Positions 33,104-56,499 of a DNA stretch of 64,000 bases are shown here, piece after piece; positions within the stretch are counted from its first letter, which is position 1; each line of letters begins with the position of its first letter. The notes below the pieces were generated by a model. It saw only the letters and a list, made by a program, of their open reading frames with translations, searched no databases and had not been told where the DNA came from. The stretch is from Tachypleus tridentatus (Eukaryota; Arthropoda; Merostomata; Xiphosura; Limulidae). The translations under genes were made by a program, and so were the position numbers. Location: NCBI RefSeq assembly GCF_004210375.1, contig NC_134830.1:2976001-3040000 (forward strand), written 5' to 3'.

Positions 33104-33346
33104 TTAGTACATTCTAGTGAGTAAAACAGGCCAATAAAATGTGTTGAATATGAGGAAGGCCAAGGGAAAAATTATTCGTGCAGCATGGTCAATAGTGACC
33201 ACCCAGTCCACAGACCACGAGGGATGTTTGAACCAATTATGGGGAAAATTGTCCTGCACGGTGGCCGGAATGGTCCAGACTGAACGCGGTTTCTTCAGAT
33301 TCTCTTGACCCTGACCTTTTTCCATATCCGAGACCAGCAGGGGAGT
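33104..33346 (-). CDS. Channel exon H (cytoplasmic loop end, TM4, stop)
   Basis: 243 nt with the stop TAA at 33104-33106 and acceptor TTTTTAG. Encodes TPLLVSDMEKGQGQENLKKP and the TM4 helix with DHAARIIFPLAFLIFNTFYW. Only a short tail follows TM4. An AATAAA on the minus strand lies at 32554-32549, about 550 bp downstream. A further small loop exon between G and H cannot be excluded but is not required by phase. Confidence 0.92.
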   Translation of the reverse strand, partial: TPLLVSDMEKGQGQENLKKPRSVWTIPATVQDNFPHNWFKHPSWSVDWVVTIDHAARIIFPLAFLIFNTFYWPVLLTRMY

Positions 33347-36300
33347 CTAAAAACACAGTTTATATTAAGTTCTGTGAGCACTTTTTATTTTAAATTTATT
33401 TATTTTCAGACCAACAACTCATTCAATAGATATCCACTAAATGGGATAGTTGATAAAATCTCTTATAGAACTAAACTGTGTGTCGTTAAAAAGTGGAAAT
33501 ACTCGTACATTAAACAAACGAGATAGAATTGGAAACTATTTTAGTTCACAGTTTGCCCACCAGGGGTTAAAAGTACGAATCTTGTTAACAACAGAAACGT
33601 GCAACAATAAATTTAACGTAGCAAGTTCCCGTGTTGTTGGAAATGAATTAATGGATTTATAAATTTTAAATAATGAATAATATTAACAATACCTAAAATA
33701 ATCGGAAAGATTGGTTTTATAATTTTAAACTGTTCATAAATAACAATTACTAGAAATGAACTTATTGCAAATATACAACAGACATTTGTGTGTTACGCAT
33801 ACAGTATTACCGCTATATCGAGACCAATGTATATTTACAAGAAAACTAGCAGTGATATTTCAAATCAACACGTCGTTTTCTGATGTTAGGCTATTAAAAT
33901 CCCAATCTGCTTCATTCCCAGCCGCCATATTGGAAGTCAAATATTTCCTTCTAACACTTAACAGCCATCTGCATCAACGTAAGCTTCAATAAAACTTTGC
34001 TTGCTATACAAGTGTTGAGTTCTTTCGACAAAATATACCGAAACTACGACTACTTAGTTTCTCGATATATCTCTCTTTCGCTCATTGATATGATTTACAG
34101 CGTCAGTTGATAAACATTTGTTATTCTTCAACCAAGAATAATGTGAGAACATGACGTCAAATATAGCGGAGTAAACTACAGACCACGTGATATTTTGATT
34201 TAAAAGGAATTAATTGTGTGATACACCAAGAATATCTAATAGCTGTGAACAATTATTTATAAATCTTAACATTATTTGCGATACTTCTTAAAACGTAGTC
34301 AGTTATGGATTTATATATTTATAAAAAATTCAGGTTTTTCCATGTTAAACAACATTAAGATTGAACTACACAACTGTGCTCTTCATAAATTATTGGATTT
34401 TTTTGCCAATATTCTGAGTCCAGAGTTACCCTTGAGTGATTGATGGTTTATAAATGTGACTTCACTGGTGTACATAAACTCTGTTAAGGTTTTTAGAATC
34501 TATAATATAAATAATCAACAAGACTGGTTGTAAAAAAATAAATACAGTAAACCGACATTCGAGAGAATACAAAACTCACATTTTAATAGAAAGCCAACAA
34601 TCACGATGGAAAGTTACTAGAGAAACAAACAAAACATTCACGCCAGACAAGATATCCAACAATCACATTGGGAAGTTACCAGAAAAACAGACAAAGAATT
34701 CATGCCAGACAAGAGATCCAACAATCACATTGGGAAGTTACCAAAAAACAGACAGATAATTCACGCCAGACAAAAGATCCACCAATCACATTGGAAAGTT
34801 ACCAGAAAAACAAAGAATTCACGTCAGACAAGAGATCCAACAATCAGATTGGGAAGTTACCAAAAAACAGACAAATAATTCACGCCAGACAAGAGATCCA
34901 AGAATCACATTGGAAAGTTACCAGAAAAACAGACAAAGAATTCACGCCGGACAAGAAATCCAACAATCACATTGGAAAGTTACAAGAAAAACAGACAAAG
35001 AATTCACACCAGACAAGAGATCCAACAATCACATTGGGAAGTTACCAAAAAAACAGACAAAGAATTCAAGTCTGAGAAGAGATATAAAAGTCAAAAAAGA
35101 AAGTTACAATGGTATAAAAGCCATATTTGAAGAAACGAAAATTTGAAGACATGTCCATCTAATTTAGGGGTTTACACAGGAAACAATCATTGAATTTACC
35201 ACACACGCCAAAAGTCACTGTTATAAGAGTACAATTATTTCTGCCTTGCTTTAGGTGAAAACAACTTGTTAACCTAACTCGCCAGACACAAGACTAACAA
35301 GAAACATCTCTTGCTTCACAGAGAAATTTATAAATATTTAATGTTAAACTTCCTTAACAAACTATCTATCAACAGGAAACACTTCTTACTTTATAAAGAT
35401 TTAATGTTAAACTTCCTTAACAAACTATCCATCAACAGGAAACACTTCTTACTTTATAAAGATTTAATGTTAAACTTTTCTAAAAAACTATCTATCAACG
35501 GGAAACACTTCTTGCTTTATAAAGATTTAATGTTAAACTTTCCTAACAAACAATCCATCACAGGAAACACTTCTTACATTATAACAATTTAATGTTAAAC
35601 TTTTCTAGCAAACTATCCATCACAGGAAACACTTCTTCTTACTTTATAAAGATTTAATGTTAAACTTTCCTAACAAACTATCCATCAACAGGAAACACTT
35701 CTTGCTTTATAAAGATTTAATGTTAAACTTTCCTAACAAACTATCCATCAACAGGAAACACTTCTTACTTTATAAAGATTTAATGTTAAACTTTTCTAAC
35801 AAACTATCCATCAACAAGCAACACTACTTGCTTTATAAATATTTAATGTTAAACTTTCCTAACAAACTATCCATCAACAGGAAACACTTCTTACTTTATA
35901 AAGATTTAATGTTAAACTTTTCTAACAAACTATCCATCAACGGGAAACACTTCTTACTTTATATAGATTTAATGTTAAACTTCCCTAACAAACTATCCAT
36001 CAACAGGAAACACTTCTTACTTTATAAAGATTTAATGTTAAACCTTTCTAACAAACTATCCATCAACGGGAAACACTTTTTACTTTATAAATATTTAATG
36101 TTAAATTTTTCTAACAAACTATCCATCAACAGGAAACACTTCTTACTTCATAAAGATTTAATGTTAAACTTTTCTAACAAACTATCCATCAACAGGAAAC
36201 ACTTCTTACTTTATAAAGATTTAATGTTAAACTTTTCTAACAAACTATCCATCAACAGGAAACACTTCTTACTTTATAAAGATTTAATGTTAATCTTCCC

Positions 36301-39300
36301 TAACAAACTATCCATCAACAGGAAACACTTCTTACTTTATAAAGATTTAATGTTAAACTTTTCTAACAAACTATCCATCAACAGGAAACACTTCTTACTT
36401 TATAAAGATTTAATGTTAAACTTTTCTAAAAAAACTATCTATCAACGGGAAACACTTCTTGCTTTATAAAGATTTAATGTTAAACTTTCCTAACAAACTA
36501 TCCATCAACAGGAAACACTTCTTACTTTATAAAAATTTAATGTTAAACTTTTCTAGCAAACTATCCATCACAGGAAACACTTCTTACTTTATAAAGATTT
36601 AATGTTAAACTTTCCTAACAAACTATCCATCAACAGGAAACACTTCTTGCTTTATAAAGATTTAATGTTAAACTTTCCTAACAAACTATCCATCAACAGG
36701 AAACACTTCTTACTTTATAAAGATTTAATGTTAAACTTTTCTAACAAACTATCCATCAACAAGCAACACTACTTGCTTTATAAATATTTAATGTTAAACT
36801 TTCCTAACAAACTATCCATCAACAGGAAACACTTCTTACTTTATAAAGATTTAATGTTAAACTTTTCTAACAAACTATCCATCAACGGGAAACACTTCTT
36901 ACTTTATATAGATTTAATGTTAAACTTCCCTAACAAACTATCCATCAAAGGGAAACACTTCTTACTTTATAAATATTTAATGTTAAACTTCCCTAACAAA
37001 CTATCCATCAACAGGAAACACTTCTTACTTTATAAAGATTTAATGTTAAACTTTTCTAACAAACTATCCATCAACGGGAAACACTTCTTACTTTATAAAG
37101 ATTTAATGTTAAACTATTCTAACAAACTATCCATCAACAGGAAACACTTCTTACTTTATAAATATTTAATGTTAAACTTTAAACCACATGAATTTGGATA
37201 ACAAATGTCGAGTTTTAAAATATAATTTACGGCTTCTCATAGTTTTATAATATAACACTAGAAACGTAACGTATTCTTAACACTAATAATTGCGTAACGG
37301 AAGTGTTGTATATTTTAAACACAGAGCTATGCTCAGGGCTATCTCTGTTATGCCTACGACAGGGATGCAAGAAACCGATTTTTAGCAATTTAAGTTTTTA
37401 AACATTTCGAAGGTCAACATATTTATATATGAAACGTTACTCACGTTAGTAGCAATTAAGTCAAATTTATTTTACATATAACCGTGTCATTTTACAAAGG
37501 GTTATTGCTAGGCCTAACAAAATACAGAAAAACTTACTGTGACGACACAAGGTTCTTACCAATGTTTGCTTCCTCTGTTGTTGGAAAAACACCTGACGTT
37601 GTTTATCGAAATATTTCACCAGAACAAATTCGGCGAACGAACAAAATACAAATAGCATGCAGGTCGCCATCCAAATGTCAATACCCTGTCCAAAGAGACG
37701 AGTAATGTCCTTCAGATAGTGGACAATATATTCATTCTCTCACTTTATAAAGCTGGAAAGAGATTTAGTTACAAACCTACTTGCTTGGTCTAGAGATATC
37801 TCACAGTATTTAGCGTTACAAATAGCTGCTCTATCTACAGACATTTAATAATATCTATTGTTACAGACAGCTGTTCTGTCTACGAATACGTAATAAGAAC
37901 TAGTGTTACAGGTAGCTGTTCTGTCTGCAGACATGTGATAAGATCTAGTGTTAAATATAGCTGTTCTGTCTACAGACGTAATAGGATCTAGTGTTACAGA
38001 TAATTGTTCTGTCTACAAACATGTAATAATATCTGGTTTTAAAAATAGTTATTCTGTCTACAGACATGTAATAATATCTAGTGGTACAGATAGTTTATCT
38101 GTCTACAGACGTAATAATATCTAGTGTTACAGATAGCTGTTCTGTCTACAGACGTAATAATACCTAGTGTTACAGATAGCTGTTCTGTCTACAGATACGT
38201 AATAAGATCTAGTGTTACAGGTAACTGTTCTGTCTACAGATATGTAATAAGATCTAGTGTTACAGATAGCTGTTCTGTCTACAGACATGTAATAATATAT
38301 AGTGTTACAGATAGTTTATCTGTCTACAGACGTAATAAGATCTAGTGTTAAAGATAGCTGTTCTGTGTACAGACGTAATAGGATCTAGTGTTACAGATAG
38401 TTGTCCTGTCTACAGACATATAATAATATCTGGTTTTAAAAATAGTTATGCTGTCTACAGACATGTAATAATATCAATTGTTACAGATAGCTGTTCTGTC
38501 TACAGATACGTAATAAGATCTAGTGTTACAGACAGTTGTTCTGTCTACAGATGTAATAATATCTAGTGTTACAGACAGTTGTTCTGTCTACAGATGTAAT
38601 AAGATCTAGTGTTACAGATAGTTGTTCTGTCTACAGACGTATGATAACTAACTTATCTGTGTAGCACAGCACAGCTGGTATGAGTATTAACACTTTTAGT
38701 AGTAAATCAAAGAACAAGGTTTCAATCATCTTAGGTTATCTTCAGGTTAACTTATATATTCACCAGGGTTTCTAGTTTAATTTAACTAACACTTCAATAT
38801 TCACTGTAATTTCTATACTGGTAACAAACATATTCTGTTTCATCTCTGTACTATAATATAACTTATGTTCGTGTAGACTTACATTGATGTAAGAGGCAGG
38901 AGGTAACCCCCCTCTGATCCCTGAGAACTGGGTAAAGAGGGACAACAAACTGGTTACAACTAAAGTAACCCTTCCAGGAATGGCATCTATTCCAATCCAA
39001 AAGGAAAACCAGGATAACATGACAATCATGGCACTGGGAGCAAACACTTGCATCAAATGATAAGATATCTGACGCTCCAGAATAAACATCACAGCTATAC
39101 ATGAATACTTCACTGAAAAGGAAATATATAAACTTAGGTTCATATTAGGGTATCCAGAAAATATATAAACTTAGATTCATGTTAGGATTTCCAGAGAATG
39201 CATAAATTATAAATGTAATAGGCGTCCCAACACTATAGGTACACCTAAATATATCAGTAAACCGACAAGTAGAGAGTAATATAGAAAGTTCTAACACATA

Positions 39301-42300
39301 ACATCACCAGCACAACGATTCGTTTACCCACTCGAGACTCGATTTCTCGTGAAGGGTACGAGAGGTAGTCCAATTTGGCTCCATTCTCAAACAAACAAGG
39401 AAAAAAATACACTTCACAGCCTGCTAGAATAATTCATATTAAGAAAAAAACTAAAAACATGTAAACCCAATGTGATATTACTCTATCAGAAAATCTGCTC
39501 ACAGAAATTTGAAGAAAGAAAAGGTTCTACCAGAAGATAGAGATGACATGACATAGGTAAAGAATAATAGTGAAGTTCTGAACTGTAGAAGTGAGGTATC
39601 ATGAGATTTGTGGAAAGACATAAACTAGCCAGTCGTAAAAATGAAGAATATTTGTAACTTACATGTCACTACAACTACCCATAACCATGGATGTAAGCAG
39701 GAGAAATGTACAAAGAAACAGGAGAAACACGTCTCTACTATAGCCTTACTTAACAATGGACACCTGTAGATTCTGATAACAATGTAAACACCGAGAATGA
39801 ACTTATATAAATAAAAGTGAAAATCCCTCTGAGACATACAGGGAATATTAAAACAGCACATGGTTTCATCAGAAGCCAACATACACCCATCGATATACAT
39901 ACCTGGCGGAGATGAATACGTCAGTTCCAAATACTTTAGAGAAACAAAAAAATAACCAAACACATAATCCAGAATCACTGTAAGTACCGGTCTAATTGGG
40001 TATCAGATAATAGATAGAATAATATCAAAATAAAATGGGTTGTAAACGACAGATGAAAATATAAAAGCTTTCTACCTCCATCAAAATAAAAGAACTACTG
40101 ACTGCGTTAAGTTTCTTACATGACCCCTAGGAACTAATACCACAATAAACCTGAAATGTAGAACATTATAATAATATTGTTCTGTCAAGATTAACAATAC
40201 AATTTAATAGTAAGTATAAATTTTCTTTCTTTTAGCACAAAAATCACACATAACCTAACTTCACGATGTACAACGCAGGAAATCGAACCCCTGACTTCAG
40301 CGTTATACGTTGCCGTTAATTTACCATACAATATATGTAATCTACAACGAAAGCTTAATTTATGTAAATGTCATTTATATATTTAAAGACTGCGTTATTA
40401 ATTATATTTTTAGTCCTAGATAAATATCAGTGTGATAGGTATCGAAATGGTCATAACTAGACTTACCAGTATGGTCGAAAATAACTAGACTTACCAGTAT
40501 GGTTGCAAATAACTAGACTTAATCAGTATGGTTGAAAATAACTAGACTTAACCAGTATGGTTGAAAATAACTAGACTTAACCAGTATGGTTGAAAATAAC
40601 TAGACTTACCAGTATGGCTGAAAATAACTAGACTTACCAGTATGGTTGCAAATAACTAGACTTAACCAGTATGGTTGAAAATAACTAGACATTACCAGTA
40701 TGGTTGAAAATAACTAGACTTAACCAGTATGGTTGAAAATAACTACACTTAACCAGTATGGTTGAAAATAACTAGACTTACGAGTATGATTGAAAATAAC
40801 TAGACTTACTAGTATGGTTGAAAATAACTAGACTTAACCAGTATGGTTGAAAATAACTAGACTTAACCAGTATGGTTGAAAATAACTAGACTTAACCAGT
40901 ATGGTTGAAAATAACTAGACTTACCAGTATGGCTGAAAATAACTAGACTTACCAGTATGGTTGCAAATAACTAGACTTAACCAGTATGGTTGAAAATAAC
41001 TAGACTTAACCAGTATGGTTGAAAATAACTAGACTTAACCAGTATGGTTGAAAATAACTACACTTAACCAGTATGGTTGAAAATAACTAGACTTACGAGT
41101 ATGATTGAAAATAACTAGACTTACTAGTATGGTTGAAAATAACTAGACTTAACCAGTATGGTTGAAAATAACTAGACTTACGAGTATGGTTGCAAATAAC
41201 TAGACTTAATCAGTATGGTTGAAAATAACTAGACTTAACCAGTATGGTTGAAAATAACTAGACTTACCAGTATGGCTGAAAATAACTAGACTTACCAGTA
41301 TGGTTGCAAATAACTAGACTTAACCAGTATGGTTGAAAATAACTAGACTTAACCAGTATGGTTGAAAATAACTAGACTTAACCAGTATGGTTGAAAATAA
41401 CTAGACTTAACCAGTATGGTTGAAAATAACTAGACTTAACCAGTATGGTTGAAAATAACTAGACTTAACCAGTATGGTTGAAAATAACTAGACTTAACCA
41501 GTATGGTTGAAAATAACTACACTTAACCAGTATGGTTGAAAATAACTAGACTTACGAGTATGATTGAAAATAACTAGACTTACTAGTATGGTTGAAAATA
41601 ACTAGACTTAACCAGTATGGTTGAAAATAACTAGACTTACCAGTATGGTTGAAAATAACTAGACTTACCAGTATGGTTGAAAATAACTAGACTTAACCAG
41701 TATGGTTGAAAATAACTAGACTTACCAGTATGGTTGAAAATAACTAGACTTAATCAGTATGGTTGAAAATCTCCTCATTAGAGTGGACGTTCAGATACTA
41801 GTCGTTATCAACGGAAGCTTATAAGTGCATAATAATTGTTATGCTAATAGTAACTGAACTAAGTAATAAACAAGTGCGTTATTATCAAATTAAAAGCAAA
41901 CATAATTACTAATCACATAAATAGATGGTTACTTTCAGACGTCCTTGTAACTTAATTCAAACATAGTAACCACTGTAATTAAAACTAACCATTCAGAGTT
42001 TCTACTGTAAACTGTAGTTTCTTCAGTTCCAAATTGTGTTGAAGCAGTTTCAGATGAGGGTTTTTTAGTGGTGAAGAGTCTTTGTCCACCCATTCGTAGT
42101 GGACAGTGTCCATCGGATAAGAATCTAGAAAAAACGTAGACATATCAAACTATAGTCACTACGTAATTAGACATATCAAACTATAGTCACTACGTAATTA
42201 GACATATCAAACTTCATTCACTAGTTAACTAGACATACCAAACTGCAATCACTACGTAACCAGACATACTAAACTATAGTTACTACATAACTAGACATGT

Positions 42301-45300
42301 CAAACTGCATTCACTACGTAACTAGACATACTAAACTATAGTCACTACATAACCAGACATACCAAACTGCAATCACTACGTAACCAGACATACTAAACTA
42401 TAGTCACTACATAACTAGACATGCCAAACTGCAGTCACTACGTGACTAGACATACTAAACTATAGTCACTACATAACTAGACATGCCAAACTGCAGTCAC
42501 TACGTAACTAGACATACTAAACTATAGTCACTACATAACTAGACATGCCAAACTAAAATAACTTTGTAACTAGACATACTAAACTACAGTCATTACATAA
42601 CTAGACATGCCAAACTAAAATAACTTTGTAACAAGACATGCCAAACTGCAGTCAATACGTAACTAGATACGCCAAACTACAGTCACTTCGTAACAAGACA
42701 TGCCAAACTACAATAACTTTGTAACAAGACATGCTAAACTGCAGTCACTACGTAACTAGACATGCCAAACTACAGTCACTACGTAATTAGACATGCCAAA
42801 CTACAGTCACTATATACATAATAATGACATATCCTAACACAGATTATTATGTTATATCCTAAGATACATAATAATGTCATATTCTAACATAGATGATTAT
42901 GTCATATCCTAACACAGTTAATAATGTCATTTTCTTATACAAGTTATTATTTCATATCCTAACATACATAAAAATGTCATATCCTAACACAGTTAATAAT
43001 GCCATATTTTATCAATTGTACGCCGCTTTCTGTTACGACAAAACAAAACTTATGTTCGTTGTTCTCCCATACATATTAAACACACGTAGAAATTCATTCC
43101 ATGTTAACGTCGTGGAACTTTAACAACTCTACACTGACAGACAATTTACAAAGACACGTAATTTTCCATGGAAATGATATTTGAATTCGAACATTTAGAT
43201 ACTAAAATTAGCATAACTAATTTACCTACAGATTCGTTTATAATCTGAAATAATGAAAGCTTATAGGTAGAAAGTCATTTTGTTCTGCAGAGACAGAACA
43301 ACAAGAGATCATGAAAAAAAAAACCGTTTATTATCCATGTCCCATTTACAATAAATAATTGTTTTCATATTTGAAAAGCAAACACATGTCTACTACCTTA
43401 TTATTGTGTTGAGAAAAGGTCAAATACTAGAAATCGCTGTCATTTAAAGTTCTTACACTAGTTGAATAATTAGGAGCAACTTTAAGAAAAATATAATCCT
43501 ATATTGACAACGATGCGCAATGTGGGAAAAAACAACAACATTAGTTATACAAAGACGGGTTATGTGGATGTAGGTGAAGACACATTTCAGCCTTTAAATA
43601 CCGGTTAACACACACAACCACAACTATGAACGGTTGATGTACTCACAACTACGAAAGGTCACAGGACATTGTTGTATGTCCACTGGATAATGTTTGAATT
43701 CCATCTGGCAGCCCACGACAGCAGCAAACCTGACAAACAATAAAACTGTTCTTATTCAAATTTATAAAAACTTCAAACCTTGTTAAATACAATGTTATAT
43801 TTTAATAACTTTATAACAACTTCAAACCTGGTTAAATACAACGTTATATTTTAATAACTTTATAACAACTTCAAACCTGGTTAAATACAACGTTATATTT
43901 TAATAACTTTATAACAACTTCAAACCTGGTTAAATACAACGTTATATTTTAATAACTTTATAACAACTTCAAACCTGGTTAAATACAACGTTATATTTTA
44001 ATAACTTTATAACAACTTCAAACCTGGTTAAATACAACGTTATATTTTAATAACTTTATAACAACTTCAAACCTGGTTAAATACAACGTTATATTTTAAT
44101 AACTTTATAACAACTTCAAACCTGGTTAAATACAACGTTATATTTTAATAACTTTATAACAACTTCAAACCTGGTTAAATACAACGTTATATTTTAATAA
44201 CTTTATAACAACTTCAAACCTGGTTAAATGCAACATTATATTTTAATTACCTTATAACAACTTTAAACCTGGTTAAATACAACGTTATATTTTAATTACT
44301 TTATAACAACTTCAAACCTGGTTAAATACAATGTTATATTTTAATAACTTTATAACAACTTCCAACCTGGTTAAATACAATGTTATATTTCAATAACTTT
44401 ATAACAACTTCAAACCTGGTTAAATACAACGTTATATTTTAATAACTTTATAACAACTTCAAACCTGGTTAAATACAATATTATATTTTAATTACTTTAT
44501 AACAACTTCAAACCTGGTTAAATACATTGTTATCCTTTAATAACTTTATAACAACTTCAAACCTGGTTAAATACAACGTTATACTTTAATAGCTTTATGA
44601 CAACTTCAAACCTGGTTAAATACAACGTTATATTTTAATAACTTTATAACAACTTCCAACCTGGTTAAATACAATGTTATATTTTAATAACTTTATAACA
44701 ACTTCAAACCTGGTTAAATACAATATTATATTTTAATAACTTTATAACAACTTCAAACCTGGTTAAATACATTGTTATCCTTTAATAACTTTATAACCAC
44801 TTCAAACCTGGTTAAATACAACGTTATATTTTAATAACTTTATAACTCAAACCTGGTTAAATACAATGTTATATTTTAATAACTTTATAACAACTTCAAA
44901 CCAACTTCAATCAACTGTAAGTAAACACTGAGTTATTAATAGTGATAAAACACTGTCCATTGAATACTGATAAAATACTGACCAATCAACTGTAACTAAA
45001 CACTGAGTTATTAATAGTGATAAAACACTGTCCATTGAATACTGATAAAATACTGATCAATCAACTGTAACTAAACACTGAGTTATTAATAGTGATAAAA
45101 CACTGTCCAGTGAATACTGATAAAATACTGACCAATCAACTGTAACTAAACACTGACTTATTAATAGTGATAAAACACTGTCCATTGAATACTGATAAAA
45201 TACTCACCAATCAACTGTAATTAAACACTGAGTTATTAATAGTGATAAAACACTGTCCATTGAATACTGATAAAATACTGATCAATCAACTGTAACTAAA

Positions 45301-48300
45301 CACTGAGCTATTAATAGTGACAAAACACTGTCCATTGAATACTGATAAAATACTGACCAATCAACTGTAACTAAACACTGACTTATTAATAGTGATAAAA
45401 CACTGTCCATTGAATACTGATAAAATACTGATTAATCAACTGTAACTGAACACTGAGTTATTAATAGTGATAAAACACTGTCCATTGAATACTGATAAAA
45501 TACTGATCAATCAACTGTAACTAAACACTGACTTATTAATAGTGATAAAACACTGTCCATTTAATACTGATAAAATACTGATCAATCAACTGTAACTGAA
45601 CACTGACTTATTAATAGTGATAAAACACTGTCCAGTGAATACTGATAAAATACTGATCAATCAACTCTACCTAAACACTGACTTATTAATAGTGATAAAA
45701 CACTGTCCATTGAATACTGATAAAATACTGACCAATCAACTGTAACTAAACACTGACTTATTAATAGTGATAAAAACTTTCCATTGAATACTGATAAAAT
45801 ACTCACCAATCAACTGTAATTAAACACTGAGTTATTAATAGTGATAAAACACTGTCCATTGAATACTGATAAAATACTGATCAATCAACTGTAACTAAAC
45901 ACTGAGCTATTAATAGTGACAAAACACTGTCCATTGAATACTGATAAAATACTGACCAATCAACTGTAACTAAACACTGACTTATTAATAGTGATAAAAC
46001 ACTGTCCATTGAATACTGATAAAATACTGATTAATCAACTGTAACTGAACACTGAGTTATTAATAGTGATAAAACACTGTCCATTGAATACTGATAAAAT
46101 ACTGATCAATCAACTGTAACTAAACACTGACTTATTAATAGTGATAAAACACTGTCCATTTAATACTGATAAAATACTGATCAATCAACTGTAACTGAAC
46201 ACTGACTTATTAATAGTGATAAAACACTGTCCAGTGAATACTGATAAAATACTGATCAATCAACTGTACCTAAACACTGACTTATTAATAGTGATAAAAC
46301 ACTGTCCATTGAATACTGATAAAATACTGACCAATCAACTGTAACTAAACACTGACTTATTAATAGTGATAAAAACTTTCCATTGAATACTGATAAAATA
46401 CTGATCAATCAACTGTAACTAAATACTGACTTATTAATAGTGATAAAACACTGTCCAGTGAATACTGATAAAATACTGACCAATCAACTGTAACTAAACA
46501 CTGACTTATTAATAGTGATAAAACACTGTCCAGTGAATGGCGATTACATACTGACCAATGAAAGATGATACACACTGACCTTGCCGTGTATTCCATAATA
46601 CAAGTATCATCAACTTTGCTTATTGTCAAGACTTGGGTCGATGTCACCTTGGATGGGGTTTCAACACTCTTCGCATTAACTATATATGTGTCAGGAATCC
46701 AGAAGAAGGTGAAGTGATTTTTAGAAACTGTAACTTTTTCCGAAATTTCCTTCCAACTTTCTCTTAGTCCTAGTTTCTTTACATTTGTTTCGTATGTTAG
46801 ACAGAAGTTGCCAGTTACATTCCACTGATGCCACAAGAAGAAATCGAGACGAAAGTCCTTAGATAAAGAAACAAATAGTATACAAGCATTTTTCTTTTAA
46901 CAGACGTTCAACTTGTGTTTTCTACAGTCTTCTATGTCCCCAAGATACAAGATAGAGAACGTAGTAATTAAGAAATGTAGTAGACTTAACACTGATGTCC
47001 ACTATATAAATGCAGAAGGTTTAATATTTTATCATGTACATTATCTAAACATGGAAAGTTTAATATTTTAAAAGGTACACTATATATACTCAGAAAGTTT
47101 AGTATTTTACCATGTACACTATTTTAACATTGAAGATTTAATATTATATTGTGTACCCTATATGAACGTAGAAAATTTAATATTTTACCATGTACACTAT
47201 TTTAACATCGATGGTTTAATATTTTCTCTTGTACAATATATAAACTCAGAATGTTTAATATTTTATCACTACACTATCTAAACACAGATGATTTTATTCT
47301 TATGAGGTACACTATTTTAAAACAGAAGGTTTAATATTTTATTATGTACACTATATAAACACAGAAGGTTTAATATTTTACCATGTACACTATGTAAACT
47401 CATAAGGTTTAATATTTTATCATGTGCAACATATAAACTCAGAAGGTTTAATATTACATCACGTACACTAAATAAACACATAACATTTACTATTTTATCA
47501 TGTACACTAGATAAATACAACAGGTTTAATTTGATATTATGTACATTATATAAACACAGAAAGTTTAATATTTTATGATGTACACTATATAATCACAGAA
47601 GATTTAATATTTTATAAGGTACACTATATAACCACAGAAGATTTAATATTTTATAACGTACACTATATAATCACAGAAGATTTAATATTTTATAACGTAC
47701 ACTATATAACCACAGAAGATTTAATATTTTATAACGTACACTATATAATCACAGAAGATTTAATATTTTATAACGTACACTATATAATCACAGACGATTT
47801 AATATTTTATAAGGTACACTATATAACCACAGAAGATTTAATATTTTATAACGTACACTATATAACCACAGAAGATTTAATATTTTATAACATACACTAT
47901 ATAATCACAGAAGATTTAATATTTTATAACGTACAACATATAAACACAGTGTGTAATATTCTATCATGTACACTATATAATCACAGAAGATTTAATATTT
48001 TATAATGTACACTATATAACCACAGAATGTTTCATACTTTATCATGTACTTTATATGAACACAGAAGGTTTACTACTTATCATGTGCACTATTTTAAGAC
48101 AGAAGATTTAATATTTTATTGTGTAACCTATATAAGCATAGAAGGTTTAATATTTTATCATGTACACTATAAAACACAGAATGTTTCATATTTTACCATG
48201 TACACTATAAAACACAGAATGTTTCATATTTTACCATGTACACTATAAAACACAGAATGTTTCATATTTTACCATGTACACTATAAAACACAGAATGTTT

Positions 48301-51300
48301 CATATTTTACCATGTACACTATAAAACACAGAATGTTTCATATTTTATCATGTACACTATAAAACACAGAATGTTTCATATTTTATCATGTACACTATAA
48401 AACACAGAATGTTTAATATTTTATCATGTAAACTATAAAACACAGAATGTTTCATATTTCATCATGTACACTATAAAACACAGAATGTTTCATATTTTAC
48501 CATGTACACTATAAAACACAGAATGTTTCATATTTCATCATGTACACTATAAAACACAGAATGTTTAATATTTTATCATGTACACTATAAAACACAGAAT
48601 GTTTCATATTTCATCATGTACACTCTAAAACACAGAATGTTTCATATTTCATCATGTACACTATAAAACACAGAATGTTTCATATTTTACCATGTACACT
48701 ATAAAACACAGAATGTTTAATATTTCATCATGTACACTATAAAACACAGAATGTTTAATATTTTATCATGTACACTATAAAACACAGAATGTTTCATATT
48801 TCATCATGTACACTATAAAACACAGAATGTTTAATATTTTATCATGTACACTATAAAACACAGAATGTTTCACATTTTACCATGTAAACTATAAAACACA
48901 GAATGTTTAATATTTTATCATGTACACTATAAAACACAGAATGTTTCATATTTCATCATGTACACTCTAAAACACAGAATGTTTCATATTTTATCATGTA
49001 CACTATAAAACACAGAATATTTAATATTTTATCATGTACACTATAAAACACAGAATGTTTCATATTTCATCATGTACACTCTAAAACACAGAATGTTTCA
49101 TATTTCATCATGTACACTATAAAACACAGAATGTTTAATATTTTATCATGTAAACTATAAAACACAGAATGTTTCATATTTCATCATGTACACTATAAAA
49201 CACAGAATGTTTAATATTTTATCATGTACACTATATAAACACAGAATGTTTTATATTTTATTATGTACACTATATAAACACAGAAGATTTATTATTTTAT
49301 CCTATATAGTAAGTAAACACAGATGACGTATTATTTATTAAGGTGTATTATTACCATGTCCAAGGCATTGATAGAATTTACGTCCTCCACATACAGCTGG
49401 GTTTTTATCAACAGAGTTTCTAAATGATACAAGAAATTTGAGTTGTGATTATATCTGTCTAACATTTATACTATAATTTCTAGAAAACTCTGCAAATGTA
49501 TTAAACAAGAGTAGAGTTCTGGACACTCTAACAATTACAGTTATGTTAAAAGTTTGGGTGACATGTGATCTGCCAAACATGTGAAAAAGCTAAGTGCTGT
49601 AGGGTGAATTATAACACAGTTCCTGAGTCAAACAGTTTTAAATGATGGTCAATGCTGTAAGGTAAATTATTACTCAGTGCCAGAGTCAAACTGTTATAGA
49701 TGATGGTCAGTACTCTAGGGAAAAGTGTTACACAGTGCCATAGTGAAACAGTTTTGGATGATGGTCAATGCTGTGAGATGAATTATTACATACTGCCAAA
49801 GACAAAATATTTTACATGATGGTCAATACTCTAAGGTAAATTATTAAACAGTGCCAGTGTCAAAGAATTTTAAATGATGGTCATGCTATAAAGTAAATTA
49901 TTATACAGTGCCACAGCAAACAGTTTTAGAAGATGGTCATGCTATAAAGTAAATTAGTATACAGTACCACAGTCAAACAGTTTTAGAAGATGGTCATGCT
50001 ATAAAGTAAATTATTATACAGTACCACAGTCAAACAGTTTTAGAAGATGGTCATGCTATAAAGTAAATTAGTATACAGTACCACAGTCAAACAGTTTTAG
50101 AAGATGGTCATGCTATAAAGTAAATTAGTATACAGTACCACAGTCAAACAGTTTTAGAAGATGGTCATGCTATAAAGTAAATTAGTATACAGTACCACAG
50201 TCAAACAGTTTTAGAAGATGGTCATGCTATAAAGTAAATTATTATACAGTACCACAGTCAAACAGTTTTAGAAGATGGTCATCCTGTAAGGTAAATTATT
50301 ACACAGTGCCAGAGTAAACATTTTTAAATGATGGTCAATACTGTAAGGTAAATTATTACACAGTGCCAAAGACAATCAGTTTTAGATGATGGTCAATGCT
50401 GTAAACCAAAATTATTACACAGTGCCAGAGTCAAACAGTTTTAGATGATGGTAATGCTCAGGTAAATTATTATACAGTGTCTTGGTGAATACTGTAAGGT
50501 AAATTATTACACAGTTCCAGAGTCAAACAGTTTAAGATAATGGTCAATACTGAAAGCCAAAAGTATTACACAGTGCCAGAGTCAAACACTTTTAAAAAAT
50601 GGTCAATGCTGTGAGGAAAATTATAACACAGTGCCAGAGTCAAAGAAGATTAGATGATGGTTTGTTCTGTAGGTTAAATTATTACACAGTTCCAGAGACA
50701 AACAGTTTTAGATAATAGTTAATGCTGTAATTTCAATTGTTACACATGCCAAAGTCAAAGAGTTTTAGATAATAGTCAATGTTGTAATGTCAATTATTAT
50801 ACAGTGCCAGTGTCAAACAGTTTTAGATAATGGTCAGTCCTGTGAGATAAATTATAACACAGAGTCAGATTCAAACTGTTTTTAATGATGGTCAATAGAT
50901 TAATATGAGTTATTTCAGACTGCAAGAGTCGAATAATTTTAGAAGATGGTCAGTATGTTAAGGTAAATTATTACACAGTAAGGGAGTCAAACAGTTTAGA
51001 AGATGGTCAGTAAGTTAAGGTAAATTATTACACAGTAAGGGAGTCAAACACTTTAGAAGATGGTCAATACCGTAAGGTAAATTACAACAGATTACAAGAG
51101 TCAAACACTTCAGAAGATGGTCAATACCGTAAGGTAAATTACAACAGATTACAAGAGTCAAACAGTTTTACATGATGTTCAATACCGTAAGGTAAATTTC
51201 AACAGATTACAAGAGTCAAGCAGTTTTACATGATGTTCAATACCGTAAGGTAAATTACAACAGATTACAAGAGTCAAACAGTTTTACATGATGTTCAATA

Positions 51301-54300
51301 CCGTAAGATAAATTACAACAGATTACAAGAGTCAAACAGTTTTACATGATGTTCAATACTGTAAGGTAAATTACAACAGATTACAAGAGTCAAACAGTTT
51401 TACATGATGTTCAATACCGTAAGGTAAATTACAACAGAGTACAAGAGTCAAACAGTTTTACATGATGGTCAATACCGTAAGGTAAATTGTTACATGGTGT
51501 CATAATCAAACAGTTTTAGATGATAGTCAATTTTGTAAGATAAATTGTTACATGGTGTCATAATCAAACAGTTTTAGATGATAGTCAATTTTGTAAGATA
51601 AATTGTTACTTGGTGTCATAATCAAACAATTTTAGATGATAGTCAATTTTGAAAGATAAATTGTTACATGGTGTCATAATCAAACAGTTTTAGATGATAG
51701 TCAATTTTGTAAGATAAATTGTTACATGGTGTCATAATCAAAAAGTTTTAGATGATAGTCAATTTTGTAAGATAAATTGTTACATGGTGTCATAATCAAA
51801 CAGTTTTAGATGATAGTCAATTTTGTAAGATAAATTGTTACATGGTGTCATAATCAAACAGTTTTAGATGATAGTCAATTTTGTAAGATAAATTGTTACT
51901 TGGTGTCATAATCAAACAATTTTAGATGATAGTCAATTTTGAAAGATAAATTGTTACATGGTGTCATAATCAAACAGTTTTAGATGATAGTCAATTTTGT
52001 AAGATAAATTGTTACATGGTGTCATAATCAAAAAGTTTTAGATGATAGTCAATTTTGTAAGATAAATTGTTACATGGTGTCATAATCAAACAATTTTAGA
52101 TGATAGTCAATTTTGTAAGATAAATTGTCACATGGTGTCATAATCAAACAATTTTAGATGATAATAAATTTTGTAAGATAAATTGTCACATGGTGTCATA
52201 ATCAAACAATTTTAGATGATAATAAATTTTGTAAGATAAATTGTCACATGGTGTCATAATCAAACAATTTTAGATGATAGTCAATTTTGTAAGATAAATT
52301 GTTACATGGTGTCATAATCAAACAGTTTTAGATGATAGTCAATTTTGTAAGATAAATTGTTACATGGTGTCATAATCAAACAATTTTAGATGATAGTCAA
52401 TTTTGTAAGATAAATTGTTACATGGTGTCATAATCAAACAGTTTTAGATGATAGTCAATGCTAAGGTAAATTATTAAGCACTGCCAGAGTCAAAGAGTTT
52501 TAGATGTTGATCAATACTTTAAAATAAATTATTACACAGTGCAAGAGACACAGTTTTAGATGATTGGGAATGCTGTAGGGTAAATTCCCACACAGTAGGA
52601 GAGTCAAACAGTTTTAGGTGATGGTCAGGTAAGTTATTACACAGTGTCAGAGTCAATGCGTTTTAGATGATTGGGAATGCTATAATGTAAATTATTACAC
52701 AGTGTCAGAGTTAAACAGTTTTGTATGATGGCCAATTCTGTAAGGTAAATTATTACACAGTGTCAGAATTAAACAGTTTTGGGTGATGGTCAATTCTGTA
52801 AGGTAAATTATTACACAGTGTCAGAGTTAAACAGTTTTGGATGATGGTCAATTCTGTAAGGTAAATTATTACACAGTGTCAGAGTTAAACAGTTTTGGAT
52901 GATGGTCAGTTCTGTAAGGTAAATTATTACACAGTGTCAAAGTTAAACAGTTTTAGGTGATAACAAACTAATATACACCACAGTGTGTTAACAAATTAAA
53001 ATATACCACAATGTGTTGACTAATTAATATACACTACAAGTTGAAAAAGACTGCTATACACCACCAGGAATGACGTTACCATTACTTATTAGAATATGGT
53101 AAGAAACAAAATTACGGCATACGGTATATAGAAACTGATGTACACTACCAAATGTTAATAATGTAATATACACCAAAATGTTTTGACAACGTAAGAAACA
53201 CAAAAAGTGTTAACTAACTTACCCCCTTGTGCAAATTAATTGAAACAAGACGGAAAATTACGATTTTTTCAATTTTTCGTTTTATTTCTGAGAATCCAAA
53301 AACTACTCACAAATTAATACATGATATGACCGCCTTTATTTTTCAGAAGATCATTACTCCGCTTTGGCATCGAGTCCACGAGTTGACCACAATCTTTACT
53401 AATTTTTTAATCGTAGTAATCACACCTTAATTATAGCCTCAATTAGCTTATCTTTCAAAGTACAGCCTTTTCCCCAAAGTCTTTCTTTATAAATCGCCCA
53501 AAGATTTTTAATAGGATTTAAGTCCGGAGAGTTTCCAGGCCAGTCCAGCACCTTTATTCGCGTTGTAGTCATAAAATTCTTCACAAGTTTCGATGCTGCG
53601 GCACGGAGCCAGATCTTGCTGAAAAATGTGGAAATCTCTTTTTCAATTCTGGAACGACTCTTCTCTGCAAAACTGCAATGTACTGTGGTCCTCGTATCAT
53701 ACCATCTACGATATATAATAATTGTTCGACGCCATAGTAGCTGAAAAAGCCTCAAAACATCTTCTTCAAGGGATGTTTTACGAACTGGTTGATGTGAGAT
53801 TCTCGAAGTTTCTCACCTGGCGATCTGCGAACATGTATACTTCTTTAACCCTGTACAAAGAAATGAGTCTCGTCACTGAATAACACTTTCCTCCATTGTT
53901 CTTGCGTCCAGTTCTTGTATTTCAGACCCCATTGATACCGTTTTTTCTTCATTGAATTGGTAAGAAGTTGTTTTTTTGACTGGTCTCCTTGCCCTTCTAA
54001 CGCAATTTCGAATGACGTAATATTCCTCAAAATTTCGTCATAGATCCCAAAAATAGATCAGCCGTACTGCAAAACACAGCTAATGACGCCGTCTGTGTGA
54101 AAAAATGACTATTAAAGGAAATCAGAGGGTCCAGCGAGCCTACACCAGCCGCCATGCTGAAAATATTGTAAAATGATCATTTGTTTCAATTAATTTGCAC
54201 AAGGGTGTATATACACAACAAGATGACAGGCAAACAAACAAGGCTTACTATTACGTGTTGGAATATGATTGTACTCCATTCCTAGATTTGTTAGTAAGAG

Positions 54301-54355
54301 AGTTTCCAAAACGTTGGTTAATTCAGAAGCATCAAGATAGTTCATGAGAAAACCA
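33104..54355 (-). CDS. Cys-loop ligand-gated ion channel subunit (anion-channel type), 8 exons, 5' end missing
   Basis: Subunit of a pentameric plasma-membrane channel. Eight exons join in order 54355-54255, 49419-49355, 46857-46580, 43729-43647, 42124-41990, 39112-38883, 37685-37560 and 33346-33104, all with AG/GT borders and matching phases, giving 419 residues without a stop. The extracellular part contains SINALDM joined to DFRLDFFLWHQW, then FFWIPDTYIVNAK and the diagnostic Cys-loop (CQMEFKHYPVDIQQC, 13 residues between Cys). TM1 is around FAPSAMIVMLSWFSFW, TM2 begins after DAIPGR, TM3 is around WMATCMLFVFCSFAEFVLV and TM4 around IIFPLAFLIFNTFYW. The short TM3-TM4 loop (about 70 residues) and the PGR in place of the PAR usual in GABA, glycine and GluCl subunits recall the insect pHCl-2/hodor group (CG11340, CG6927, CG7589). 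That assignment is from memory and the ligand is unknown. The signal-peptide exon was not found; it probably lies above 54355 or outside the window. Confidence 0.9.
33347..34594. other. Unique part of channel intron 7
   Basis: AT-rich intronic sequence without recognised elements; the rest of this intron is two minisatellite arrays. Confidence 0.55.
34595..35080. repeat. 62-bp minisatellite in channel intron 7, about 8 copies
   Basis: The unit has AGAAAAACAGACAAAGAATT, CACGCCAGACAAGAGATCCA and ACAATCACATTGGAAAGTTA. The length is not a multiple of three, so apparent ORFs change frame at each copy. Confidence 0.93.
35306..37180. repeat. 63-bp minisatellite in channel intron 7, about 30 copies
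   Basis: The unit has TTTATAAAGATTTAATGTTA, AACTTTTCTAACAAACTATC and CATCAACAGGAAACACTTCT. The unit is a multiple of three and reads as a 21-residue repeat on the strand opposite to the channel. A block of 15 units is duplicated: the diagnostic order of variants (AAGCAACACTACTTGC, ATATAGATTT and others) at 35657 onward recurs at 36602 onward, 945 bp later. Confidence 0.95.
37316..37400 (-). mobile_element. Very degraded SINE-like fragment in intron 7
   Basis: GAGCTATGCTCAGGGCTATC and AGAAACCGATTTTTAGCAA resemble the tail and tRNA-like part of the second SINE family on the minus strand. Weak. Confidence 0.3.
37560..37685 (-). CDS. Channel exon G (TM3)
   Basis: 126 nt, phase 0 at both ends, acceptor GGACAG and donor GTAAGA. 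Encodes GIDIWMATCMLFVFCSFAEF, VLVKYF and the start of a Gln-rich intracellular loop (QQQRKQTL). Confidence 0.93.
37815..38645. repeat. About 43-bp minisatellite in channel intron 6, roughly 19 copies
   Basis: The unit has AGATCTAGTGTTACAGATAG, CTGTTCTGTCTACAGACGTA and ATA. Some units carry an extra CAT or TAC before GTAATA. A block with GTTTTAAAAATAGTTAT recurs near 38035 and 38435. Confidence 0.92.
38883..39112 (-). CDS. Channel exon F (TM1 and TM2)
   Basis: 230 nt, acceptor TTTTCAG and donor GTAAGT. Encodes KYSCIAVMFILERQISYHL, TM1 (FAPSAMIVMLSWFSFWI), the selectivity region DAIPGRVTL, and TM2 (VVTSLLSLFTQFSGI) ending PPASYIN. An uncommon Gly occupies the middle of the usual P-A-R motif. 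Confidence 0.96.
39113..40451. other. Unique part of channel intron 5
   Basis: No exon-like or mobile sequence apart from a weak SINE-like stretch at about 40232-40322 (AATCGAACCCCTGACTTCAG on the plus strand). The ORF at 39625-39978 shows no family resemblance. Confidence 0.5.
40452..41770. repeat. 29-bp minisatellite in channel intron 5, about 45 copies
   Basis: The unit has AACTAGACTTAACCAGTATG and GTTGAAAAT. Some copies lack one A (ACTTACC). A block marked by CGAGTATGATTG followed by CTAGTATGG occurs near 40780, 41095 and 41555, showing repeated multi-unit duplications. Confidence 0.95.
41990..42124 (-). CDS. Channel exon E (loop C region)
   Basis: 135 nt, acceptor TCTAG and donor GTTAGT. 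Encodes SYPMDTVHYEWVDKDSS through KKLQFTVETLN. It corresponds to the Y..x.xRYxW segment and the approach to binding loop C. Confidence 0.88.
42137..42815. repeat. 31-bp minisatellite in channel intron 4, about 22 copies
   Basis: The unit has AACTAGACATGCCAAACTGC and AGTCACTACGT. Copies with CATACTAAACTATAGTC and copies with CATGCCAAACTGCAGTC alternate, so the effective unit in the middle is a dimer of about 62 bp. Confidence 0.93.
42825..43010. repeat. About 30-bp tandem repeat in channel intron 4, roughly 6 copies
   Basis: The unit has ATAATGTCATATCCTAACAC and AGTTA/AGATT variants. It is unrelated to the 31-bp array beside it. Confidence 0.8.
43011..43646. other. Unique part of channel intron 4
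   Basis: No feature recognised; it precedes exon D on the genomic plus axis. Confidence 0.5.
43647..43729 (-). CDS. Channel exon D (Cys-loop)
   Basis: 83 nt, acceptor GTCAG and donor GTGAGT. Encodes FAAVVG then the C-x13-C Cys-loop CQMEFKHYPVDIQQC and PVTFRS. The P-[IVLM]-D motif at the loop centre (YPVD) is present. Confidence 0.95.
43775..44905. repeat. 49-bp minisatellite in channel intron 3, about 23 copies
   Basis: The unit has AACTTTATAACAACTTCAAA, CCTGGTTAAATACAACGTTA and TATTTTAAT. The copies at about 43830-44220 are nearly identical, while the higher-coordinate half is more variable. Confidence 0.95.
44917..46545. repeat. 75-bp minisatellite in channel intron 3, about 22 copies
   Basis: The unit has CTGACCAATCAACTGTAACT, AAACACTGACTTATTAATAG, TGATAAAACACTGTCCATTG and AATACTGATAAAATA. 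An eight-unit block is duplicated: marker variants (TACTCACCAATC, AGCTATTAATAGTGAC, CATTTAATACTG) occur near 45203-45560 and again 599 bp later. The array runs to within about 35 bp of exon C. Confidence 0.95.
46580..46857 (-). CDS. Channel exon C (ligand-binding core)
   Basis: 278 nt, acceptor CTAAG and donor GTCAGT. Starts DFRLDFFLWHQW, includes GLRESWKE, FFWIPDTYIVNAKS (WxPD signature) and ends IMEYTA plus a split Arg codon. Two extra Cys and an N-linked site (NVT) lie in the WHQWNVTGNFC segment, an insertion compared with typical subunits. Confidence 0.93.
47010..49310. repeat. 38-40-bp minisatellite in channel intron 2, about 59 copies
   Basis: The unit has TTTAATATTTTATCATGTAC and ACTATAAAACACAGAATG. 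The lower-coordinate part (47010-48140) is diverged, with TATAAACACAGAAGG or TATAATCACAGAAGA variants. The part from 48140 to 49220 is highly homogeneous, with ATTTTACCATG, ATTTCATCATG and ATTTTATCATG subtypes intermixed. It fills about nine tenths of the intron. Confidence 0.94.
49355..49419 (-). CDS. Channel exon B (extracellular, first beta strands)
   Basis: 65 nt between an AG at 49420-49421 and GTAATA. Encodes TLLIKTQLYVEDVNSINALD and Met, the strand that carries the V.S.xSIxExxM pattern of the family. Phase joins exon A through a split Gln codon. Confidence 0.85.
49600..52965. repeat. About 55-58-bp minisatellite in channel intron 1, nearly 60 copies
   Basis: The unit has TCAAACAGTTTTAGATGATG, GTCAATGCTGTAAGGTAAAT and TATTACACAGTGCCAGAG. 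Several local subfamilies have expanded separately: GGTCATGCTATAAAGTAAAT copies (49880-50290), CAATACCGTAAGGTAAATTA copies with AACAGATTACAAG (51060-51470), and TTGTAAGATAAATTGTTACA copies with TGGTGTCATAA (51480-52460). Confidence 0.94.
53222..54207 (-). mobile_element. Tc1/mariner transposon, internally deleted, in channel intron 1
   Basis: Terminal inverted repeats CCCTTGTGCAAATTAATTGA (from 53224) and its complement ending CAAGGGTG at 54207 are flanked by TA on both sides (53220-53221 and 54208-54209). At 986 bp it is shorter than a full Tc1 element (usually 1.3-1.7 kb). The part encoding the N-terminal DNA-binding domain is missing. Confidence 0.9.
53420..54040 (-). pseudogene. Disabled Tc1-like transposase remnant
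   Basis: Read on the minus strand: KNWTQEQWRKVLFSDETHFF contains the first catalytic Asp (SDETHF), then a stop. The QDxAxxH-type second Asp region near 53600 is frameshifted (SVPQHRN). The third block reads DWPGNSPDLNPIKNLWAIYK, where the catalytic Glu of NPIENLW is replaced by Lys (AAA for GAA). The DDE triad is therefore broken in more than one place. Confidence 0.85.
54255..54355 (-). CDS. Channel exon A (N-terminal extracellular)
   Basis: Acceptor TTTCAG before 54355 and donor GTAATA after 54255; 101 nt, entering with the last base of a split codon and leaving in phase 1. Encodes GFLMNYLDASELTNVLETLL and ends YNHIPT. It is the start of the mature extracellular domain, matching the xYD..xRP region of Cys-loop subunits. 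Confidence 0.75.
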
Positions 54356-54424: not shown

Positions 54425-54713
54425 TTACAGCATTTCATGTAAAAAACACTTTGGGTTGTATATGCCACACAGTACGTTAAAAATTTAGGGTATGTAAAAA
54501 CATTGTACGTCAAAAACATTGGATTATATCTACATCATTGTGTATTATAAAGTTTGGGTTATATCCATATCATTGTCAATTACAAAGTTTGAGTTATAAT
54601 TATAACATTATGTATTACAAACTTTGGGTTATATCTATAACTGTATATCACAAAGTTTGGTATGTATCAATATCATTGTGTATTAAAAAGTTTGAGTTAT
54701 ATCTATAACACAC
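54425..54713. repeat. About 38-bp tandem repeat, left part, split by a LINE
   Basis: The unit has ATATCTATATCATTGTGTAT and TACAAAGTTTGGGTT, diverged. The same array continues at 59532-59725 on the far side of the LINE. Confidence 0.8.
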
Positions 54714-55361
54714 CCTTGGTGTGGATTCCTGTACGTGGTGAGGGGCACTCCCAGGGAAGGTTCTGTTCTTTCAGTTTATCTCTTCCGGGATCAAAACATC
54801 CACTCACGTGTTTGCCGTGCGTGGCAACCCGTGAAGGGGAGGAGAGAATCCTGGTGGTTGAGGGGTCCAACTCTAACACACCATTTAGCCTTGAATTCCT
54901 GTAGACGGGCGGCCTTGGGGTAGCCCCCTTGGGTAAATCGGCTGGTCCACTCGGGCTAGGGTCAACCAAGTACCAGTGTTGGATATTCTCAACAGATATT
55001 GTGGATATTATGTCTGATGCTGGTGTTTGGATATAGTGCTCACGAAACCCTGGCGTTGATGCAGTAGCCTTGTTTGACATTGTAGTGCGTCCCCTCATAG
55101 GGTTCCATGGTGGGCGAGGTTAGTGGACATCGAAATTTCCCTTTCTTTATTGTGGCTACTCCACTTAAAAATCTTAATAAAATAGTGAAAAAAGAGTCTA
55201 TAGGTAAGCGACCACGTTTTGAACATTCTGAACAACAATTCTCGCCATCTGTACCACCTGTTGTACCTCATTTCTTATATCTCGAATAAGGAAAGTAAGG
55301 AAAAAGGACGCAGTCATAAACAGAAGGGTTCTCTGCCCAATTCGCCTACACGTAAATAAAA

Positions 55362-56481: not shown

Positions 56482-56499
56482 TCTTGCTCTCTGATGGCC

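Follow-up and report, generated by a model that had tools for sequence, protein, structure and literature searches.

How does a single gene come to carry, in each of its introns, a tandem repeat that resembles none of the others? The question is raised by a stretch of 64,000 nucleotides from the horseshoe crab Tachypleus tridentatus (contig NC_134830.1, here C6:2976001-3040000, in a genome assembly of 2,167,478,450 bp and 205 contigs), hereafter the window, and by a glycine-receptor-like channel gene on its minus strand. An earlier note on this DNA had proposed that seven introns of the gene each hold their own minisatellite, born independently, and had suggested either a local or genome-wide process that seeds such arrays or a role in intron size or splicing. 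The answer we arrive at is that the gene probably lies in an array-prone domain. Single-copy DNA there would be duplicated in tandem and amplified in place, with selection on exons and splice sites as the main limit. The birth of minisatellites is an old open question, since old arrays usually hide their origin. Here, independent arrays of differing age stand side by side in paralogous introns with the exons as landmarks, so that birth, growth and turnover become countable, and one array of a paralog still bears the exon/intron boundary from which it came, a visible origin.

Eight exons of the gene lie within the window (33104-54355), with 419 codons and a stop, and all seven introns seen have GT-AG borders; at least one further 5' exon is needed because the first exon in the window starts out of phase. 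Against the Protein Data Bank (PDB; phmmer), the protein matched GlyR alpha-2 with an E-value of 1.6e-58 over residues 40-412. PF02932, the transmembrane domain of Cys-loop channels, was recovered above cut-off in exon 6, and exons 7 and 8 taken singly gave weak matches below it. The predicted product is a glycine-receptor-like Cys-loop anion channel, with homology spanning the extracellular domain and the transmembrane segments TM1 to TM4.

Arrays were called with Tandem Repeats Finder (TRF; Table 1) and found where they had been announced, in all seven introns. They cover 71, 92, 99, 58, 49, 70 and 56% of introns 1 to 7, respectively, and 70.1% of the 19,991 intronic bp, in line with the two thirds estimated beforehand. 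Most of the proposed unit sizes were reproduced; the second unit of intron 4 measures 25 bp rather than 30 and that of intron 6 about 45 bp rather than 43, and two short arrays had been overlooked, a 28-mer in intron 1 and a 37-mer in intron 5. Intronic units measure 25-75 bp, and the arrays of the window 0.1-3.4 kb. In five dinucleotide-preserving shuffles of the window, TRF found at most one short array per shuffle and never one that reached 100 bp with a score of 150. The exons are as clean as was claimed, with one array bp in total and none under a stricter threshold. Arrays end 31, 12 and 9 nt before the acceptors of introns 3, 4 and 5, so near that, given the usual spacing of branch points, the branch points of these introns probably lie in array DNA. 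Intron 3 illustrates how little fixed sequence an intron may retain: 55 bp lie outside its arrays, made up of 31 bp next to the acceptor, 20 next to the donor and 4 that separate the two arrays.

The units are indeed unalike from intron to intron. Pairwise comparison of 29 unit consensuses (406 pairs) singled out three clear relationships, with scores of 112-142 and each within one array family; the next best pair scores 29. When the best 25 pairs were set against 300 shuffles each, a fourth (the 90-mer with the 49-mer of intron 3) also beat all 300, a result that chance may give for about one pair in 406; nothing clear was shared between units in the 406 pairs beyond the three within-family cases. 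A whole-genome search covered 13 of the 29 consensuses. The first six units gave 77 matches, all at the window locus, and the other seven gave 164, which among the matches listed fell at the window locus as well, save two at C4:35.268 Mb for the 58-mer of intron 1. Twelve of the 13 units are thus private to the window among the matches listed, and one has a single further place (C4:35268058-35268267), where 3.6 copies, about 82% identical, stand between flanks that are not shared.

The origin of an array can be read in the closest paralog of the gene, at C10:123.455-123.485 Mb, with 64-89% amino-acid identity per exon over exons 3 to 8. Its introns 3 to 7 consist of 64, 72, 58, 0 and 63% arrays, or 68% of 28.5 kb. 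Comparison of its 11 units with the 29 of the window (319 pairs) gave no score above 30 (the best were 23-30), against 112-142 for true relatives, and only the exons and a dispersed element resembling a short interspersed nuclear element (SINE) can be aligned between the two loci. In intron 3 of this paralog, the first bases of a 101-bp unit are the final 9 nt of exon 3, followed by the donor site (TACAGCAAG/GTCAGTG, the slash marking the boundary). Three more full copies and one partial copy are present, with the GT kept in two of the full copies and replaced by TT in the third and in the partial one; in the window gene this boundary occurs a single time (GGCAAG/GTCAGTG). Because the 101-mer contains its own exon-3/donor boundary, the array arose by in-place tandem duplication of conserved single-copy DNA. 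With the private units of the window and the unrelated units of the paralog, this supports the independent birth of arrays. As a separate observation, intron 4 of the paralog (C10:123.46-123.47 Mb) contains a 66-mer array of about 12 kb and more than 170 copies.

Duplicated loci show how arrays fare once formed. An inverted partial copy of exon 8 and intron 7 of the C10 paralog lies at C10:126914262-126921934 (minus strand) and could be a recent duplication or a misplaced haplotype. The intron-7 arrays of 31-, 70- and 59-mers, measured as spans among the matches listed, extend over 1988, 2472 and 536 bp in the paralog and over 2205, 1862 and 293 bp in the inverted copy, so that unit counts have changed in all three. 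Two inverted paralog copies at C10:15.88 and 16.08 Mb (56 and 29% arrays in 3 kb each) have a common 45-mer array with its flank at 97% (sample positions 2244-3000 and 2243-3000), and arrays therefore persist through recent duplications.

Inside the arrays, growth appears to have involved more than single units. The longest repeated block (at most 3 mismatches) was sought in nine window arrays: in five it recurs at 5-15 units, with lengths of 341-639 bp, and in the remaining four at 1-2 units, with lengths of 120-801 bp. In the 63-mer array of intron 7, a block of 409 bp returns at a distance of 945 bp (15 units), with no more than 3 mismatches, and in the 75-mer array of intron 3 a block of 639 bp is repeated at 599 bp. 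These long lags suggest block exchange or repair synthesis besides single-unit slippage. The mean copy differs from its consensus by about 2-17%, depending on the array, within an ordered block structure. A difference in decay between edge and centre copies was seen only in some arrays, the 38-mer of intron 2 and the 57-mer of intron 1; the former is diverged in its low-coordinate half and homogeneous in its high-coordinate half.

The arrays are not confined to the gene. They are also common at 17-33 kb and 54-63 kb of the window, which the first reading had overlooked, and four 3-kb samples at 2.93, 2.96, 3.06 and 3.10 Mb of C6, located 13-63 kb outside the window (46 kb to its left to 63 kb to its right), contain 43, 100, 68 and 40% arrays. 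From these samples, which span 173 kb (C6 2.93-3.10 Mb), the surroundings of the gene are rich in arrays, though not uniformly so. As a genome control, 20 random 10-kb tiles, whose positions were drawn by script, had a mean of 9.9% and a median of 0.7% minisatellite DNA, with 16 arrays in 200 kb. The six tiles of the window reach 10-77% and count 4, 1, 3, 6, 7 and 5 arrays, 26 in total, a figure in which arrays that span two tiles may have been counted twice. The two sets differ in coverage (Mann-Whitney, p 0.0015) and in count (p 0.0006), on the understanding that tiles of one window are not independent. Of the two seeding processes envisaged by the earlier note, the local one is upheld, with all four flanking samples at 40% or more, and the genome-wide one is not.

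These private units (within the limits of the search), the lack of a genome-wide norm, the regional spread, the in-place origin in intron 3 of the paralog, the block repetition and the length differences between duplicates make an array-prone domain a likely setting for the gene. In such a domain, short pieces of whatever single-copy DNA is there would repeatedly be tandem-duplicated in place, and the duplicates would then multiply and become homogenised, one unit or a block of several units at a time, most likely via misaligned recombination or repair synthesis between copies rather than by slippage alone. Array birth would be blind to sequence and to gene structure. Harmless arrays would survive and come to occupy introns and intergenic DNA, approaching some splice sites as closely as 9-31 nt, with purifying selection presumably acting as the main filter that keeps them out of exons. 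By blind birth and survival wherever harmless, each intron would come to hold its own unrelated minisatellite. This raises the question of what renders one chromosomal neighbourhood array-prone.

Several results weigh against this proposal. In the non-coding DNA of the window outside transposable elements, whose limits are approximate, arrays cover 73.5% of introns versus 45.3% of the rest, and number 1.99 per kb of unique DNA in introns versus 0.87 outside. If arrays struck introns at the outside rate, an array in every one of the seven would have a probability of about 0.06 when the rate is taken per total kb and close to 0 per unique kb, and introns may thus have a modest excess of arrays. 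Up to 14.6 kb, the window is poor in arrays (11%). The copy of the 58-mer on C4 implies that at least one unit moved or was copied, and one of the eight paralog units searched, a 54-mer, has matches of 53-63 bp on at least nine contigs at 83-87% identity. Two of the 12 best pairs between paralog and window units beat all 300 shuffles, slightly above the expectation for 319 pairs. Folding of tandem-dimer DNA against shuffled units (29 units, both strands) gave z-values of -0.9 to 2.1, with no excess of hairpin-prone units that could have served as seeds. As to the extent of the domain, the sequence read across the genome amounts to about 300 kb in all.

Going further, array-proneness could be a lasting property of the domain that outlives the arrays themselves, so that after gene or whole-genome duplication both copies would stay prone while their arrays are replaced independently. 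Paralogous introns would then both be packed and share no repeats because the domain state lasts while arrays turn over, and if this were true, introns there would consist of a few tens of fixed splice-site bases and turnover DNA. We regard this extension as rather doubtful. If the window is included and the inverted C10 pair taken as one, three of five paralog loci fall in array-rich places, compared with 2 of 20 random tiles (p 0.038). The window had been selected because of its arrays; without it, the comparison becomes two of four versus 2 of 20, which is not significant (p about 0.12) and includes loci represented by 3 kb only, so the idea draws on few loci. A neighbourhood shared with the paralog was also sought via a neighbouring gene; codanin-1 has a single match in the genome, and there was therefore nothing to compare.

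Could transposable elements or other mobile repeats instead have brought the arrays, with amplification following later? The dispersed matches of the paralog 54-mer, the second home of the 58-mer on C4 and a 36-mer array within a transposase-like relic (2302-2517) would agree with such an origin, and human tandem repeats derived from transposable elements are described in the available part of PMC3389668. However, 12 of the 13 window units have no match elsewhere among the matches listed and do not show the distribution of a dispersed element, the 101-mer of the paralog stems from an exon/intron boundary, and an element of the long interspersed nuclear element (LINE) type is younger than the 35-mer array in which it sits. 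For the 12 private units a mobile origin is largely refuted, unless the word filter of the search hid dispersed copies: the paralog 32- and 66-mers are missing from the matches listed even at their own locus, and because of the 66-mer we take it that the word filter or the listing hides some units. As a general account of the arrays, we find mobile repeats very improbable.

A further proposal is that arrays are kept by selection for intron length or splicing, as the earlier note had suggested for this gene, with precedents in CeRep25B of Caenorhabditis elegans (available part of PMC4039745) and in human IFI6 (available part of PMC4526556). An array in seven of seven introns, the proximity of some arrays to acceptors with branch points probably in repeats, the higher number of arrays per unique kb in introns and the packing of the closest paralog all speak for it. 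So do splice-like sites on the transcript strand. Real donors of the gene score 6-8 of 9, and the 29-mer and the 62/63-mers hold repeated donor-like sites of at least 7 (CTG/GTAAGT in some copies of the 29-mer of intron 5); the 38-mer of intron 2 has repeated acceptor-like sites. Yet the donor-like motifs lie on the transcript strand in introns 7 and 5, with few in intron 3, and on the opposite strand in introns 1 and 6, and the arrays gave a mixed picture as to whether splice-like or polyadenylation signals are avoided or used on one particular strand. The units have nothing in common, and intron 6 of the C10 paralog does without an array. Counted per total kb, arrays of at least 100 bp are about equally frequent in introns (0.53) and outside them (0.48); the stretch 5' of exon 1 is as rich as the introns (66%, 2.46 arrays per unique kb), and 57% of the window from 14.6 to 33.1 kb is array DNA.

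Intron length leads to the same view. Introns 3 to 7 of a paralog at C6:28.95 Mb, where 1.3% of the 11.4 kb read is array, measure about 0.8, 3.1, 1.2, 0.8 and 3.9 kb, as compared with 2.9, 1.5, 2.9, 1.2 and 4.2 kb in the window gene; the totals are about 9.8 and 12.7 kb, respectively, and 28.5 kb in the C10 paralog. The introns of the window gene (mean 2.9 kb) are not long in view of the means of 3.8 and 4.3 kb given in the available parts of two horseshoe crab genome papers. A splicing or length role of the arrays is thus not supported by what can be read from the DNA, and we judge it highly unlikely.

Equally unlikely, in our opinion, is that packed introns are normal in this genome and the locus ordinary. 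Such places are not unique, since 2 of the 20 random tiles exceed 70% and further array-rich places were met on C10. Those two tiles, the only ones above 25%, each owe their coverage mostly to one long array, and the low median of the random tiles sets them apart from the window. Six samples of 1 kb each, adjacent to kinase exons, served as intron controls; a single one had an array that reached the 100-bp threshold (215 bp in the 6 kb), and a second had one of 79 bp, below it. The paralog at C6:28.95 Mb is array-poor, as seen above, and the one at C6:100.01 Mb has no array in a 3-kb intron sample. That arrays or array lengths are assembly artefacts is the least credible explanation, for although assembly of tandem arrays is difficult, their copy numbers may be off and a misplaced haplotype could account for the inverted copy at C10:126.9 Mb, the copies diverge from their consensus in ordered blocks, a LINE-like element breaks one array with a near-perfect target duplication, and the paralog has a like structure with other units.

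The remaining elements of the window are listed with the arrays and exons in Table 1. A non-long-terminal-repeat (non-LTR) retrotransposon-like element, the LINE-like element mentioned above, lies within the 35-mer array and is bordered by a target duplication of nearly 10 bp (ATCTATAACA and ATCTGTAACA); from the sequence, it appears to have split the array after the array had formed. In the 36-mer array at 2302-2517, the last copy is in frame with the downstream open reading frame of the transposase-like relic (KARDADFTL-LNKVKRAM). We assume a hAT/ZMYM-like identity for this relic, for which Pfam gave no match. No array-free relative of the transposase-like frame was found among viral contigs. 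Long open reading frames at 24610-26155 (+), also without a Pfam hit, resemble a domesticated or relic hAT-type transposase. The dispersed element of about 270 bp that we label SINE-like occurs at 9606-9876, 20459-20736 and 21014-21251, and in both paralog genes read. Codanin-1, the gene with a single genome match, occupies 10530-14579 (+) as one unbroken frame of 1349 codons (PF15296); its coding sequence is apparently intronless in a genome with long introns. Elsewhere in the genome, the coagulogen family PF02035, not known outside horseshoe crabs, has 19 matches, the best at 1.5e-25, as befits a horseshoe crab genome.

Table 1. Exons, tandem arrays and mobile-element-like sequences of the window (positions counted from its first nucleotide).
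Feature	Position	Strand	Basis or remark
85-mer array outside gene	17029..19741		TRF
90-mer array outside gene	22217..23811		TRF
57-mer array 3' of gene, 58 copies	26846..30134		TRF
40-mer array 3' of gene, 27 copies	30479..31579		TRF
Exon 8, last coding exon (TM4, stop)	33104..33346	-	Open frame, AG acceptor; PF02932 weak, below cut-off
Intron 7	33347..37559	-	56% arrays
Intron 7: 62-mer array, 8 copies	34594..35083		TRF; among matches listed, only this locus
Intron 7: 63-mer array, 29 copies	35327..37180		TRF
Exon 7 (TM3 onward)	37560..37685	-	Exon model; PF02932 weak, below cut-off
Intron 6: 45-mer array, 19 copies	37811..38638		TRF
Exon 6 (TM1-TM2)	38883..39112	-	PF02932 4.5e-12, above cut-off
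Intron 5: 37-mer, 2.3 copies, 9 nt off exon 6 acceptor	39122..39206		TRF
Intron 5: 29-mer array, 46 copies	40453..41770		TRF
Exon 5	41990..42124	-	Exon model
Intron 4: 31-mer array, 22 copies, stops 12 nt off exon 5 acceptor	42137..42812		TRF
Intron 4: 25-mer array, about 8 copies	42814..43012		TRF
Exon 4	43647..43729	-	Exon model
Intron 3: 49-mer array, 23 copies	43761..44902		TRF
Intron 3: 75-mer array, 22 copies, adjoins 49-mer array	44907..46559		TRF
Exon 3 (extracellular domain)	46580..46857	-	Exon model; PDB GlyR matches
Intron 2: 38-mer array, 60 copies	46995..49301		TRF
Exon 2	49355..49419	-	Exon model
Intron 1: 57/58-mer array family, about 58 copies	49607..52961		TRF
Intron 1: 28-mer, 3 copies	52957..53039		TRF
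Tc1/mariner-like relic in intron 1	53230..54205 (approximate)	-	PF13358 DDE_3 4.9e-06 at 53420-53812, just below cut-off
Exon 1 in window	54255..54355	-	Exon model; phase demands upstream exon
35-mer array, part 1	54519..54710		TRF
Non-LTR retrotransposon-like element within 35-mer array	54711..59534 (approximate)	+	PF03372 endonuclease, PF00075 RNase H weak, both below cut-off
35-mer array, part 2	59535..59687		TRF
51-mer array upstream of exon 1	59799..61724		TRF
65-mer array, diverged relative of 51-mer	61921..62762		TRF, unit comparison

No description of such an array-packed neighbourhood was found in the open literature, subscription papers being outside the search. In the available parts of the horseshoe crab genome papers, a word search returned no word starting with 'satellite', and 'minisatellite' together with 'horseshoe crab' did not occur in those papers; the pair was met only in reviews, by title on mammal karyotype evolution and on centromeres.

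Among known systems, the introns of Daphnia pulex are likewise arthropod introns high in tandem repeats. According to the available part of PMC3152781, the excess there concerns units of 1-5 and 7-8 bp, whereas units longer than 8 bp are far scarcer in introns than elsewhere, a trend opposite to that of the 25-75 bp intronic units described here. CeRep25B of C. elegans is also minisatellite DNA within introns of transcribed genes; it is one dispersed intronic family, over-represented near alternative splicing in what is available of PMC4039745, whereas here each intron has its own unit and sequence tests found no link to splicing. The human IFI6 (6-16) minisatellite supplies several splice donors whose use has been reported (Turri 1995, via the available part of PMC4526556). 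The 101-mer of the C10 paralog, which repeats the exon-3 donor, is similar in that the unit holds a splice donor, but here the repeated donors are read from the DNA, and the window gene has a single exon-3 donor.

Satellite DNA shares with these loci long tandem arrays with internal higher-order structure. It differs in that it forms a single family spread over chromosomes in very long or numerous arrays, which none of the 13 units searched does: there are no megabase blocks of a single family, only short arrays, with 12 of the 13 units at their own place alone among the matches listed. Minisatellites, or variable number tandem repeats, offer a close likeness. Like them, the arrays consist of head-to-tail units within some 10-100 bp and extend over lengths within some 0.1-30 kb (here units of 25-90 bp in arrays of 0.1-3.4 kb), with diverged copies, block-wise duplication, length differences between duplicates, changed unit counts in the three duplicated paralog arrays and, for 12 of 13 units among the matches listed, a locus-specific unit. 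Human subtelomeric minisatellites are an example of this class; unlike those, the window lies 3 Mb from a contig end and the paralog has an interior place. The arrays of the window also differ from minisatellites in being AT-rich and not GC-rich, and in that many unrelated, private arrays pack most of the non-coding DNA here, including the seven introns seen of one gene.

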